Below are positions 35,966-40,725 of a stretch of DNA of 64,000 nt, piece after piece. The first letter of the stretch is position 1. Every line of letters starts with the position of its first letter. The translations under genes and the position numbers were made by a program. The notes below the pieces were generated by a model that was given only the letters and a program-made list of their open reading frames with translations, had not been told where the DNA came from and did not search any database. Source of the DNA: Sneathiellales bacterium (GTDB lineage Bacteria > Pseudomonadota > Alphaproteobacteria > JANQFL01); the NCBI GenBank assembly GCA_028277845.1, contig JANQFL010000038.1, positions 1-64,000 of the forward strand, read 5' to 3'.

Positions 35966-36029
35966 GTGATTGACCGTATACGCGCAGGGGCGAGATCCTT
36001 TAAGGGCTGCGGCCTGGGAGACGACGAAA

Positions 36030-37430
36030 ATGACCAGTCTTGTCAATCCGGTGGTGATGTCCGGGCGCGAGGTTCTGCCGTTGATCGAGGGCGGCAAGGG
36101 TGTCTCCATCTCCACCGGGCAGAGCTCGGGAGCTTGGGCGGCCGCCGGTGGCATGGGCACGTTTTCGGCCGTCAACGCCGACAGCTACGACGAAAACGGC
36201 AAGCTGATCCTGCAATCCTACCAGGGCAAGACCCGCAAGGAACGCCATGAGGAATTGATCGCCTATGCCATCCGCGGTGGCATTGCGCAGGCCCGCATCG
36301 CCCACGACGTGGCCGGTGGCCAGGGCGGCATCCATATGAACGTTTTGTGGGAGATGGGCGGCGCCGAGCGGGTATTGCGCGGCGTGCTGGAAGGTGCCAA
36401 GGGCCTGGTGCACGGCGTCACCTGCGGTGCCGGCATGCCCTATAAGCTGAGCGAACTGGCGGCCGAATACGGCGTTCACTACTACCCGATCATTTCCTCG
36501 GCCCGGGCGTTCCGCGCCTTGTGGAAGCGGGCCTATCACAAGTTTTCCGACCTGATGGGTGGCGTCGTCTACGAGGATCCCTGGCGCGCCGGCGGCCACA
36601 ACGGCCTGTCCAATTCGGAAGACCCGCGCAATCCGGAAGATCCGTTTCCGCGGGTTCTGGCGCTGCGCAAGATCATGCGCGAGTTCGGCCTCGACAACGT
36701 GCCGATCATCATGGCCGGCGGCGTCTGGTATCTGCGCGAGTGGCGCGACTGGATCAACAACGCCGAACTCGGGCCCATCGCGTTTCAGTTCGGCACCCGG
36801 CCGTTGCTGACCAAGGAAAGCCCCATATCGGATGCCTGGAAGCGGAAACTTCTGTCGCTCAAGAAGGGCGACATTCTGCTCAACCGGTTCAGTCCGACGG
36901 GTTTTTGGTCGTCCGGCGTACGCAACGAGTTTCTGCGCGAACTGGAGGAGCGCCACGACCGGCAGTTGGCCTATACGACGGAACCTCTGGGCGAGCACCA
37001 GGCGGAGTTTCCCGTCGGCGCCCGCAAGCGCATGGTCTTTCTCACGCCCAGCGACAAGGAACTGGCCGAAAGCTGGTCGGCGCAGGGATTCACCGAACCC
37101 TTGAAGACACCCGATTCGACCCTGATGTTCGTGACCCCGGAGAAGGCCCAGGAAATCCGGCAGGATCAGATCGACTGCATGGGCTGCCTGTCCCAGTGCC
37201 TGTTCTCCAACTGGGCGGACAACGAGGCCGCGACGTCGGGCAAACGGGCCGATCCGCGCAGCTTCTGCATCCAGAAGACGTTGCAGGACATCGCCCATTC
37301 CGACGAAGTGGATCACAACCTGATGTTTGCCGGCCATGCGGCGTATCGCTTTGCCGACGATCCGTTCTATTCAAACGGTTTTATTCCATCGGTAAAACAA
37401 CTGGTCGAACGTATTGTGACCGGGGATTGA
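36030..37430 (+). CDS. Nitronate monooxygenase-family flavoprotein with a C-terminal cysteine cluster
   Basis: A 466-residue TIM-barrel flavoprotein of the 2-nitropropane dioxygenase/nitronate monooxygenase superfamily. The FMN-barrel features include GVTCGAGMPYKLSELA (about residues 131-146), VPIIMAGGVW (about 227) and FQFGTRPL. It is longer than typical family members, and its C-terminal part carries C383, C386 and C390 (CMGCLSQC) plus C413, which could hold a Fe-S cluster. Substrate cannot be inferred. The ATG at 36030 has GGGAG 9 nt upstream; an ATG at 35970 would add 20 residues. A strong terminator follows, then irr. Confidence 0.75.
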   Translation: MTSLVNPVVMSGREVLPLIEGGKGVSISTGQSSGAWAAAGGMGTFSAVNADSYDENGKLILQSYQGKTRKERHEELIAYAIRGGIAQARIAHDVAGGQGGIHMNVLWEMGGAERVLRGVLEGAKGLVHGVTCGAGMPYKLSELAAEYGVHYYPIISSARAFRALWKRAYHKFSDLMGGVVYEDPWRAGGHNGLSNSEDPRNPEDPFPRVLALRKIMREFGLDNVPIIMAGGVWYLREWRDWINNAELGPIAFQFGTRPLLTKESPISDAWKRKLLSLKKGDILLNRFSPTGFWSSGVRNEFLRELEERHDRQLAYTTEPLGEHQAEFPVGARKRMVFLTPSDKELAESWSAQGFTEPLKTPDSTLMFVTPEKAQEIRQDQIDCMGCLSQCLFSNWADNEAATSGKRADPRSFCIQKTLQDIAHSDEVDHNLMFAGHAAYRFADDPFYSNGFIPSVKQLVERIVTGD

Positions 37431-37463
37431 GCGGATAAGCGGTCAATCACTTTGGAACAATTA

Positions 37464-37492
37464 AAAAAAATCGTCTAGCGCACGATTTTTTT
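37464..37492. terminator. Bidirectional-looking terminator between the flavoprotein gene and irr
   Basis: AAAAAAATCGT at 37464-37474 pairs with ACGATTTTTTT at 37482-37492 over a 7-nt loop; short GAAC/GTTC arms flank it. The T run also forms part of the candidate irr promoter (TTGTTC at 37491-37496, TTATCT at 37515-37520). Confidence 0.75.
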
Positions 37493-37521: not shown

Positions 37522-37947
37522 ATGGGGATGATGCGTAACCGACCTTTCACCGATATCCTGGCTCGTCTGCGAACGGCCGGACTGCGGCCGACGCGGCAGC
37601 GCCTGGCTTTGGGGAAGCTGCTTTTTGCCGACGGCAACCGCCACGTGACGGCCGAAATGCTGCACGAGGAAGCGGTCGACAACAAGATCCAGGTGTCGCT
37701 GGCGACCGTCTATAATACCCTCAACCAGTTCACCGATGCCGGATTGCTGCGCGAAGTGGTCGTTGAATCGGGCCGGTCCTACTTCGACACCAACACCAGC
37801 GAGCATCACCACATCTTCCACGTCGACAATGGCGCACTGGAGGATTTGTCCGACGACTCCATGCGCCTGGTGGAGTTGCCGGTATTGCCGGAAGGCACGC
37901 AGTTGGAGCGCGTCGACATCGTTATCCGGGTTCGGAACTCGAACTAA
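37522..37947 (+). CDS. irr: Iron response regulator Irr (Fur superfamily)
   Basis: A 141-residue heme-responsive iron regulator of alphaproteobacteria; in Rhizobiales Irr represses or activates genes under iron limitation through ICE boxes. Recognised by LRPTRQRLALGKLLF, the recognition helix VSLATVYNTLNQFTDAGLL, and the diagnostic His run at H95-H97 (SEHHHIFH). The Bradyrhizobium-type N-terminal heme regulatory motif is absent, as in Rhizobium. No ribosome site precedes the ATG at 37522; ATGs at 37528 and 37531 are equally possible and the transcript may be nearly leaderless. Rubrerythrin follows. Confidence 0.9.
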   Translation: MGMMRNRPFTDILARLRTAGLRPTRQRLALGKLLFADGNRHVTAEMLHEEAVDNKIQVSLATVYNTLNQFTDAGLLREVVVESGRSYFDTNTSEHHHIFHVDNGALEDLSDDSMRLVELPVLPEGTQLERVDIVIRVRNSN

Positions 37948-37990
37948 TTTGATAACGATTTTCAATCTCTTAAATCATAAATTAAATTTG

Positions 37991-38029
37991 TTCTAAACTG
38001 TTGACCGGGGCAGTACGTGTGCCTATATT
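37991..38029 (+). promoter_or_regulatory. Strong promoter of rubrerythrin with an Irr-box-like half site
   Basis: TTGACC at 38001-38006 and TATATT at 38024-38029 are exactly 17 nt apart, the best sigma70-like promoter seen in the window. Just upstream, TTCTAAA at 37991-37997 equals the right half of the ICE consensus (TTTAGAA-N3-TTCTAAA); the left half is a poor match (about 4 of 7). About 100 nt of leader then precede the ATG at 38131. Confidence 0.6.
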
Positions 38030-38130
38030 GACGGTGTGGCGCTGGCGAAACGCGGCGATAATGCTGTGATCGCCGGTGCTCGGCGATCTCATTCGTTTGA
38101 TTAGACATTACCCGTCAACAGGAGGACCTC

Positions 38131-38550
38131 ATGCCGTCATTAGCGGGCACGAAAACCGAACAAAATCTGAAAGACGCGTTCGCCGGCGAAAGCCAGGCCA
38201 ACCGCCGCTATCTCTATTTCGCCCAGAAGGCCGACATCGAAGGCTACAACGATGTCGCCGCCGTGTTCCGTTCGACCGCCGAAGGCGAAACCGGCCATGC
38301 CCATGGCCATCTGGAATATCTGGAAGAAACCGGTGATCCGGCGACCGGCGAACCGATCGGCGATACCTCGGCCAATCTGAAGGCGTCCATCGCCGGCGAG
38401 ACCCACGAATACACCGACATGTACCCGAGCATGGCCAAGGCCGCCCGGGACGAAGGGTTCGACGAAATCGCCGATTGGTTCGAAACCCTCGCCAAGGCGG
38501 AAAAGAGTCACGCCGGCCGCTTCCAGAAAGCGCTCGACACGATGGAATAA
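38131..38550 (+). CDS. Rubrerythrin without rubredoxin domain
   Basis: A 139-residue diiron peroxidase of the rubrerythrin family that reduces hydrogen peroxide. Four-helix-bundle ligands are visible: E20 (GESQANRRY), E53 and H56 (EGETGHAHGH), E90/E93 (GETHEYTDMY), E124 and H127 (AEKSHAGRF). The C-terminal rubredoxin domain of classical rubrerythrins is missing, so electrons must come from another protein. AGGAGG at 38120-38125 is a near-perfect ribosome site. It follows irr and precedes a Fe-S protein gene and a DUF3501 gene. Confidence 0.93.
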   Translation: MPSLAGTKTEQNLKDAFAGESQANRRYLYFAQKADIEGYNDVAAVFRSTAEGETGHAHGHLEYLEETGDPATGEPIGDTSANLKASIAGETHEYTDMYPSMAKAARDEGFDEIADWFETLAKAEKSHAGRFQKALDTME

Positions 38551-38587
38551 CCGGGCCGGTCCGATCCGGACACACCCGTACCGACGT

Positions 38588-38637
38588 TCGAACCGTTCGG
38601 TTCGACATGGCAACCGGGGTTCATAGCCCCGGTTGCC
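38588..38637 (+). terminator. Two inverted repeats after rubrerythrin
   Basis: TCGAACCG (38588-38595) pairs with CGGTTCGA (38598-38605), and GGCAACCGGGG (38609-38619) pairs with CCCCGGTTGCC (38627-38637), both perfect. There is no T tract, so the second stem may be an intrinsic partial terminator or an RNA-stability stem that sets a high rubrerythrin to downstream-gene ratio. Confidence 0.5.
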
Positions 38638-38760
38638 CCACTCTCCGAGTTTGATTTGCCTGGCCCGTTTGTCGGGGTACCCAGTACCGCGCACCGTGCG
38701 TGTGGGCCATCGCAATCTAAGGGGCACACAAACCGGTGCCGCAACGAAAAGAGGGCCATT

Positions 38761-40098
38761 ATGCGTGAAGGCAGTCTCGAAGCCCCCGTCCGTCATCCGT
38801 TGGATTGGAACAATCCCGAGTTTTATGACGCCGAAAAGATCGATGAAGAACTTCGGCGCGTCTTCGATATCTGCCACGGCTGCCGGCGCTGCTTCAATCT
38901 GTGCGACAGCTTTCCCCGGCTGTTCGATCTGATCGACGAATCGGACACGGGCGAACTGGACTCGGTCTCAAGCGACAATTTCGGCCCCGTCGTTGACGCC
39001 TGCACCCTGTGCGACCTGTGCTTCATGACCAAGTGCCCCTATGTTCCGCCGCACGAATTCAACCTCGATTTTCCGCACCTGATGCTGCGATACCGGGCGG
39101 CGCAGCACCGCCAGGGCAAAACGACCTTCGCCGCGAAACAACTCAGCCGGACCGACCGCAACGGCAAGCTGGCCGGCCTGGCGCCGGGCCTGGCCAACTG
39201 GGCCGGCAAAACGGGCAACGGCCTGACCCGGCCGGTCATGGAATCCGCCATCGGCATCGATCGGGAAGCCCATCTGCCCAAGTTTCACGGCAAGACCTTC
39301 GTCGCCCGGTCGAAATCCGGCGGCCCGGCCGTCAATACCGATGCGCCGGCGCATGGCCGCAAGGCCGTGATCTACTCCACCTGTTTCGTCAACTACAACA
39401 ATCCCGGCATCGGCGAAGCCGCGCGCGCGGTTCTGGCCAGGAACGGCGTCGAGACCGAAGTGGTGCATCCGGCCTGCTGCGGCATGCCGCTCCTCGAACA
39501 CGGCGACATTGGCGCCGTGGCGGACCGGGCGCGCAAGGTGTCGGCCGAACTGATACCGTGGATTGACAAGGGCTATGACGTCATCGCCCTGGTACCGTCC
39601 TGCGCCTTGATGCTGAAATTCGAGTGGCCCCTGATCCTGCCCGGCGACCAGACCGTGAAGACATTGGCCCAGGCGACGTTCGATATCAGCGAATACGTCG
39701 TTGACATCGCCAAAAAGGAAGGCCTGGCGGATGGCATGCAGGCGCTCGACGGCGGCACGGCGCTGCATTTGGCGTGCCATGCCCGGGCCCAGAACATGGG
39801 GCCGAAGGCGGCGGAAATGCTGCGGCTGATCCCTGAAGCCGATGTCGCCGTCATCGATCGCTGCTCCGGCCACGGCGGTTCCTGGGGCATCATGAAGGAC
39901 AATTTCCAGACAGCCCTCAAGGTCGGCAAGCCCGTTGCCCGCCAGGCCGCCAAGGCGGGTAAGGCATTCGTCGCCTCGGAATGCCCGTTGGCCGGCGACC
40001 ACATTTTGCAGGGCATGGAACGGCTGGATACGGAGGTATCCGTCGAGCAGGCCCACCACCCCATTGAACTAGTGGCCAGAGCCTACGGGCTGGCGTAA
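38761..40098 (+). CDS. GlpC/HdrB-like Fe-S oxidoreductase (rubrerythrin-associated)
   Basis: A 445-residue cytoplasmic Fe-S protein. N-terminal cluster motifs are C38-C41-C44-C48 (CHGCRRCFNLC) and C81-C84-C87-C92 (CTLCDLCFMTKC; last spacing is four rather than three). Two CCG-type cysteine-rich regions follow: C208...C239-C240-G (HPACCGMPLLEHGD) and C339...C368-S369-G370, where Ser replaces the second Cys. The layout matches anaerobic glycerol-3-phosphate dehydrogenase subunit C and heterodisulfide reductase-like proteins, but no glpA/glpB partner is present. It lies between rubrerythrin and DUF3501 and is a candidate electron donor to rubrerythrin. ATG at 38761; earlier frame overlaps the hairpin region. 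Confidence 0.85.
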   Translation: MREGSLEAPVRHPLDWNNPEFYDAEKIDEELRRVFDICHGCRRCFNLCDSFPRLFDLIDESDTGELDSVSSDNFGPVVDACTLCDLCFMTKCPYVPPHEFNLDFPHLMLRYRAAQHRQGKTTFAAKQLSRTDRNGKLAGLAPGLANWAGKTGNGLTRPVMESAIGIDREAHLPKFHGKTFVARSKSGGPAVNTDAPAHGRKAVIYSTCFVNYNNPGIGEAARAVLARNGVETEVVHPACCGMPLLEHGDIGAVADRARKVSAELIPWIDKGYDVIALVPSCALMLKFEWPLILPGDQTVKTLAQATFDISEYVVDIAKKEGLADGMQALDGGTALHLACHARAQNMGPKAAEMLRLIPEADVAVIDRCSGHGGSWGIMKDNFQTALKVGKPVARQAAKAGKAFVASECPLAGDHILQGMERLDTEVSVEQAHHPIELVARAYGLA

Positions 40099-40116
40099 AA
40101 GGCAAAGCAGTACGTT

Positions 40117-40725
40117 ATGTCCATGACCATCGACACCGCCATGAAACATGAAATCACCCGCGACGACATTCTGCCTCTGGCGGAATACGAAGCCATCCGC
40201 AGCGAAAAGCGCGGCGAACTGATCGCGCAGAAAAGAAGCCGCCGCGTCGCGGTCGGTCCCTATGCCACCTTCTATTTCGAAAATTACGACACCATGTGGT
40301 GGCAGATCCACGAAATGCTGCGCATCGAGAAAGGCGGCGAAGAGCAGATCGCCGACGAACTGGCGGCATACAACCCGCTCATTCCCAACGGCCGCGACCT
40401 GGTCGCCACGGTCATGTTCGAGATCGAAGATCCGGAGCGGCGCAATGTCATCCTGCGTGGGCTGGGGGGTGTCGAGGACTGCATCGAAATGCGCATCGGC
40501 GACGATGTCATTGCCGCCTGGTCGGAACAGGACGTGGAACGCACCAAGGAAGACGGCAAAACGTCGTCCATTCACTTCGTGCATTTCGACCTGACCGGCG
40601 AACAGGTGACCGCTTTCCGCGACCCGTCCGTCACGGTGATCCTGGGTATCAGTCATGAAAACTACGGTCATATGGCGGTGCTGCCGCCGGTCACCCGGGA
40701 CAGTCTTGGCCACGATCTGGATTAG
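40117..40725 (+). CDS. DUF3501 family protein
   Basis: A 202-residue soluble protein of a family with no function I know. Distinctive segments are RDDILPLAEYEAIRSEKRGELIAQKRSRRV (first 20: RDDILPLAEYEAIRSEKRGE), FYFENYDTMWWQIHEMLRIE and FVHFDLTGEQVTAFRD. No cysteines that could bind a cluster in a motif and no membrane segment are visible. It starts 18 nt after the Fe-S protein and is clearly in its operon. I recall the rubrerythrin/Fe-S protein/DUF3501 trio as recurring in Proteobacteria but cannot check that here. Confidence 0.8.
   Translation: MSMTIDTAMKHEITRDDILPLAEYEAIRSEKRGELIAQKRSRRVAVGPYATFYFENYDTMWWQIHEMLRIEKGGEEQIADELAAYNPLIPNGRDLVATVMFEIEDPERRNVILRGLGGVEDCIEMRIGDDVIAAWSEQDVERTKEDGKTSSIHFVHFDLTGEQVTAFRDPSVTVILGISHENYGHMAVLPPVTRDSLGHDLD

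Follow-up and report, generated by a model that had tools for sequence, protein, structure and literature searches.

Does a rubrerythrin gene that directly follows the iron regulator gene irr belong to a peroxide-reducing system under the control of Irr, and what would its two companion genes contribute? This question is raised by the 64,000-nucleotide stretch of DNA from a Sneathiellales bacterium that was analysed here (the window), for which the earlier note, made from the sequence alone, had proposed an iron-controlled chain in which an Fe-S protein feeds electrons to a rubrerythrin in place of rubredoxin, with a DUF3501 protein as a third component. As it had claimed, the four genes lie on one strand, and the trio of rubrerythrin (RBR), Fe-S protein (RFO) and DUF3501 genes (38131-40725) stands directly 3' of irr. 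This observation is confirmed, and the interpretation built on it was, as a whole, partly supported.

Table 1. Features of the irr-rbr locus, in window coordinates.
Feature	Position	Strand	Basis
irr	37522-37947	+	NCBIfam IrrA (NF045678), 204.7 bits against a cut-off of 150
rbr	38131-38550	+	PF02915, 2e-30; aerobic-type rubrerythrin, diiron four-helix domain only
RFO (CCG-type Fe-S protein)	38761-40098	+	PF02754 (CCG)
DUF3501 gene	40117-40725	+	PF12007, 2e-58
rbr promoter, TTGACC-17-TATATT	38001-38029	+	starts 3 nt past the Irr box
Irr box upstream of the rbr promoter	37981-37997		11/14 against TTTAGAAnnnTTCTAAA; most relatives have a box at the corresponding place
Weak Irr-box-like site upstream of irr	37451-37467		11/14; window sequence alone

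The trio and the published rubrerythrin system

The aerobic-type rubrerythrin system RBR-RFO-DUF3501 was described by Cardenas et al. in 2016, who found the three families together in 185 genomes, named RFO and proposed that it compensates for the loss of the rubredoxin domain (PMC5114695). The same trio was reported in mitochondria in a 2020 study, where several protist lineages were found to carry it and its presence in the last eukaryotic common ancestor was inferred (PMC7050145). The window locus has a rubredoxin-less RBR of the sulerythrin/4di0 group, an adjoining RFO of COG0247 type and an adjoining DUF3501 gene, and it agrees with the 2016 system in families, gene order, adjacency and the missing rubredoxin domain of RBR. 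The window trio is therefore a member of this published system, and neither the trio nor the idea of a relay through the Fe-S protein is new. What distinguishes the window locus is that irr and an Irr box belong to it, whereas the 2016 account is silent on regulation (PMC5114695).

Loci containing DUF3501 and at least 2.6 kb of upstream sequence were surveyed (n = 114). The earlier note had named rarity of rubrerythrin beside DUF3501 and this Fe-S protein as the outcome that would speak against it, and the opposite was found: rbr was present in 113 of the 114 loci and both partners adjoined it in 112, a count that, because the loci were found via DUF3501, says how often DUF3501 has its partners and not the reverse. 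The median gap between RFO and DUF3501 was 35 nt. The exceptions to the trio were L083, where rbr is followed directly by DUF3501 without RFO, and L101, where DUF3501 stands alone; RBR with DUF3501 and no RFO was also reported for Thermoproteales (PMC5114695). At L037 (8037-10787), an NMO gene abuts an RFO gene missing its first 189 residues and DUF3501 is broken, which marks either a decayed locus or an assembly join. DUF3501 was absent from the viral contig collection and was found on plasmids only in four Burkholderia replicons. Natural RFO-DUF3501 fusions have been reported for Nitrosomonas; three long open frames in L168-L170 that resembled such fusions were rejected as out-of-frame readings of GC-rich sequence.

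Several further elements were seen in the window. Between rbr and RFO, within a gap of 210 nt, lies a strong inverted repeat without a T run, GGCAACCGGGG...CCCCGGTTGCC (38608-38637), which might govern the relative amounts of rbr and RFO transcript, and the rbr leader holds a nine-pair hairpin, GATCGCCGGTGCTCGGCGATC (38068-38088). A Fur-box-like stretch, GATAACGATTTTCAATCTC (37950-37968), was spotted by eye between irr and the Irr box. Directly 5' of irr lies a gene for an NMO/COG2070-like flavoprotein with a C-terminal CxxCxxxC...C motif (35970-37430), a possible partner or electron donor of the system; as electron donor it was set aside, since it adjoins irr in just 20 of 60 irr-linked loci.

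RBR, RFO and the DUF3501 protein

The RBR matches PF02915 and, as noted earlier, has no rubredoxin domain; a genome-wide search found no rubredoxin either. Its di-iron ligand pattern, read from the sequence, is E20, E53/H56, E90/E93 and E124/H127, and the nearest solved structures are 9onm, 4di0 (the Burkholderia pseudomallei rubrerythrin) and sulerythrin (1j30). The protein belongs to a single-domain rubrerythrin clade together with sulerythrin and the ferriperoxin of Hydrogenobacter thermophilus, which is a proven peroxidase whose mutant cannot grow aerobically (PMC3317640); the RFO gene of H. thermophilus lies elsewhere in its genome (PMC5114695). Peroxide reduction by the window RBR is predicted by analogy with ferriperoxin, the one relative for which it has been demonstrated.

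The description of the Fe-S protein as one without glycerol-phosphate dehydrogenase partners held up. RFO scored below both GlpC equivalog cut-offs (187.9 against 278 bits and 112 against 279.9 bits) and GlpB, the nearest such partner, was missing from the genome in a genome-wide search. RFO contains 15 cysteines, all of them invariant in 61/61 homologues, arranged as two four-cysteine ferredoxin-type motifs followed by C208/C239-C240/C281 and C339/C368/C408. Neither of these last two repeats is a complete CCG motif of the form C-CC-CxxC used to recognise HdrB, and none of their cysteines stands in a CxxC. In HdrB the five-cysteine motif holds non-cubane clusters; the incomplete repeats of RFO make disulphide chemistry unlikely and favour a relay role. 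The predicted structure (pLDDT 93.6) resembles LutA, mycobacterial EtfD (412 aligned columns) and HdrB. RFO thus has the CCG fold in common with GlpC, LutA, EtfD and HdrB, and its N-terminal 4Fe-4S motifs are as in GlpC and EtfD, but its operon lacks a GlpA/GlpB, Lut or Hdr partner and its CCG repeats are incomplete.

A role of RFO as electron relay to RBR is plausible, and it fits the 15 invariant cysteines, the EtfD/LutA/HdrB-like fold and the rubredoxin-less genome. Alternatively, RBR may receive its electrons from ferredoxin or ferredoxin:NADPH reductase (FNR), while RFO and DUF3501 serve the system in another way, for example in repair or loading of the diiron site or in iron disposal. 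Ferriperoxin, active in vitro with NADPH and FNR alone (PMC3317640), points in this direction and implies that RFO is not chemically obligatory. The lineages that pair RBR with DUF3501 in the absence of RFO (PMC5114695; L083) and the incomplete CCG repeats also speak for this alternative. The near-universal co-localisation of RFO with a rubredoxin-less RBR and a fold that is that of quinone- and ETF-linked electron-transfer proteins favour the relay, however, and we regard the alternative as rather unlikely.

The DUF3501 protein was modelled with a pLDDT of 93.3, and its sole significant structural match was 3fjv from Burkholderia pseudomallei, which has the same fold (TM 0.82-0.93, 33-36% identity) and for which the depositors gave no function or ligand. 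Among DUF3501 homologues there was no invariant cysteine; the conserved residues include F54, E55, Q63, E66, M67, E81, E102 and R142. The function cannot be read from the fold, and the protein is perhaps an adaptor or assembly factor.

Irr and its box at the rbr promoter

The regulator beside the trio belongs to the Irr(A) family of the Fur superfamily and, with 65.8 bits against a cut-off of 146 on the Fur equivalog model, is not a canonical Fur. It has no cysteine and carries the haem-binding HxH motif within SEHHHIFH. Among 66 trio-linked Irr proteins, 60 have HHH and the other 6 HxH, while the haem-regulatory CP motif, which belongs to B. japonicum-type Irr only and is not required of all Irr, was found in none, so that haem is probably sensed via the HxH site. 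Of the 108 loci with enough sequence, beta- and gammaproteobacterial loci counted in, 62 have an irr gene preceding the trio. According to a review, Irr is found, with few exceptions, in alphaproteobacteria only, and its haem-free form binds the box and represses or activates depending on box position (PMC7762939). The known Irr regulon of R. sphaeroides and rhizobia (mbfA, ccpA, bfr) has the regulator family and the box in common with the window locus and includes rubrerythrin-like and peroxidase genes, but these are different genes from those of the window (PMC3413700, PMC7762939); MbfA, a membrane-bound iron exporter that includes a rubrerythrin-like domain, is a protein distinct from the window RBR.

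The strong promoter proposed in front of rbr was present, while the Irr-box-like "half site" described with it in fact matches 11 of the 14 positions of the published Irr box TTTAGAAnnnTTCTAAA. The window box beats 98% of shuffles (p = 0.02) and is weak when taken alone, as the genome has 50 sites with at most three mismatches, whereas the reversed control gives 68; of the 50, however, a pair lies 530 bp apart, at irr and at rbr. The site becomes convincing through comparison with relatives. The rbr upstream regions of 88 alphaproteobacterial loci were scored against TTTAGAAnnnTTCTAAA, and the box beat 95% of shuffles in 56/64 irr-linked loci (window included; mean 11.9 of 14 positions) and in 8/24 loci without linked irr. 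Two of these 8 have irr 2.5 kb away, and others are from Methylocystis and its kin. A TTGAC sequence followed the box within 8 nt in 56/60 loci, against a background of 5.9%, and the commonest gap was 3 nt (35/60). An ICE/Irr box thus stands at the rbr promoter of the window and is conserved in its relatives.

We also searched 28 alphaproteobacterial genomes for boxes with at most one mismatch and found 35, compared with 13 for the backward pattern. Sixteen were at the rbr promoter, and 7 of the other 19 were at genes for defence against peroxide or iron oxidation, namely katG (L204), catalases (katA; L216, L221 and L205), a peroxiredoxin (L214) and dps (L231 and L234); the remaining sites, about a dozen, are as many as expected by chance. 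In L221, L205, L214, L231 and L234, as judged by eye, the box is followed after 4-5 nt by the -35 element and after a further ~17 nt by the -10 element, as at rbr. Elsewhere in the window genome, no peroxide gene was found beside a box (boxes with two mismatches, and some with three). In L208 (1501-1517; genome G038), a perfect Irr box has the same spacing to TTGACG and precedes genes that, by reading of the sequence, encode a small membrane protein and a truncated-globin-like protein.

The rbr upstream regions of beta- and gammaproteobacterial genomes without linked irr were intended as a negative control. However, a related palindrome, often TTTAGACnnnGTCTAAA, was found in 16/27 of these regions, mostly after the -10 element, and TTTAGACnnnGTCTAAA was confined to genomes whose Irr-like regulator belongs to none of the named Irr families. 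Within the 200 bp upstream of rbr it was seen at or after the -10 element in L129, L172-L177, L181, L183, L184 and L187. Because the controls carried the box, co-occurrence with the regulator was tested. The window Irr was used to search 25 genomes without linked irr, mostly beta- and gammaproteobacterial, and an Irr-like regulator was found in 17 (E <= 1e-26), including two alphaproteobacteria whose Irr is unlinked, while 8 had canonical Fur only. The box was present at rbr in 14/17 genomes with the regulator and in 0/8 without it (Fisher p = 1.5e-4, relatedness ignored). On the IrrA model the gammaproteobacterial regulators reach 130-142 bits, a little short of the cut-off of 150, and in the tree the Irr-like regulators form one clade with alphaproteobacterial Irr (100/100), far from Fur, with the gammaproteobacterial members together (100/99).

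Probable direction of control and its meaning for Irr

Across Proteobacteria the trio sits behind a predicted Irr-type binding site, and this is apparently new: we found no published account of Irr control of the trio, although the 2006 Irr regulon work, which lay outside our search, may hold part of one. We consider it fairly probable that the aerobic-type RBR, RFO and DUF3501 system is under the direct control of the adjacent Irr, most likely acting as a repressor. Regulation by Irr, which senses haem-iron status, is probable, and the link to an iron regulator made in the earlier note is strongly supported by the conserved boxes, their fixed spacing and the co-occurrence of Irr-like regulators. 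Since the targets of Irr are peroxide genes, however, "iron-controlled" alone is likely only half of the regulation, and from the same targets we infer peroxide itself as a signal. At low levels of haem and iron, apo-Irr would occupy the box beside the -35 element and most likely repress the operon; haem (that is, sufficient iron), and probably also peroxide, would remove Irr so that the operon is made. The diiron site of RBR would then reduce H2O2 to water, RFO would relay electrons to it through two ferredoxin-type clusters and its CCG-type domain, in place of the missing rubredoxin, and DUF3501 would be an accessory part.

Two other readings of the box have to be weighed against repression. 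The trio might merely neighbour irr and the box be a chance AT-rich match, as the 11/14 match and a genome count not above the reversed control would allow; most relatives, however, have the box at the same place and at a fixed distance from the -35 element, and the box accompanies the regulator even where the two are not linked, so that the comparative data already contradict this reading, which we hold to be highly improbable. A box held at a fixed distance upstream of the -35 element might also serve activation; the operon would then be expressed under iron shortage, to scavenge peroxide in cells unable to spare haem for catalase. With its centre near -47 and its spacing tightly fixed, the box has a geometry typical of activators, and direct activation is common for Irr (PMC7762939). 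Yet RBR and RFO are iron-rich, a poor fit with synthesis under iron shortage, and the sister promoters have the geometry of repression, with the box between the -35 and -10 elements at katA (L216), two boxes flanking the -10 element at katG (L204 1456-1517, genome G008; TTAGAATAATTCTAA and TTTAGAGAGATTCTAAA) and the box after the -10 element at gammaproteobacterial rbr. In R. sphaeroides, Irr binds directly at two oxidative-stress genes, mbfA and ccpA, and iron limitation induces both more strongly when Irr is absent; the ccpA box, ~40 nt before the start site, has a similar geometry to that at rbr (PMC3413700). These promoters and the R. sphaeroides results lead us to favour repression and to consider activation rather improbable.

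Overall, these results suggest that Irr acts at the trio as a peroxide-defence switch. The Irr box ties the trio to peroxide defence through a regulon and not through homology alone, and its conservation offers an immediate experimental handle on the trio, with irr mutants, haem and peroxide. It also suggests that Irr, mostly described as an iron regulator of alphaproteobacteria, has a part in peroxide defence and relatives beyond that class. More tentatively, and with somewhat less than even confidence, Irr-type regulators may be an ancient proteobacterial peroxide-defence switch parallel to PerR, with a beta- and gammaproteobacterial sister clade that uses a slightly different box, TTTAGACnnnGTCTAAA, with the trio as the core target and with catalases, peroxiredoxin and Dps added as targets in some alphaproteobacteria. 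If this is true, the role of Irr in iron uptake known from rhizobia would be derived.
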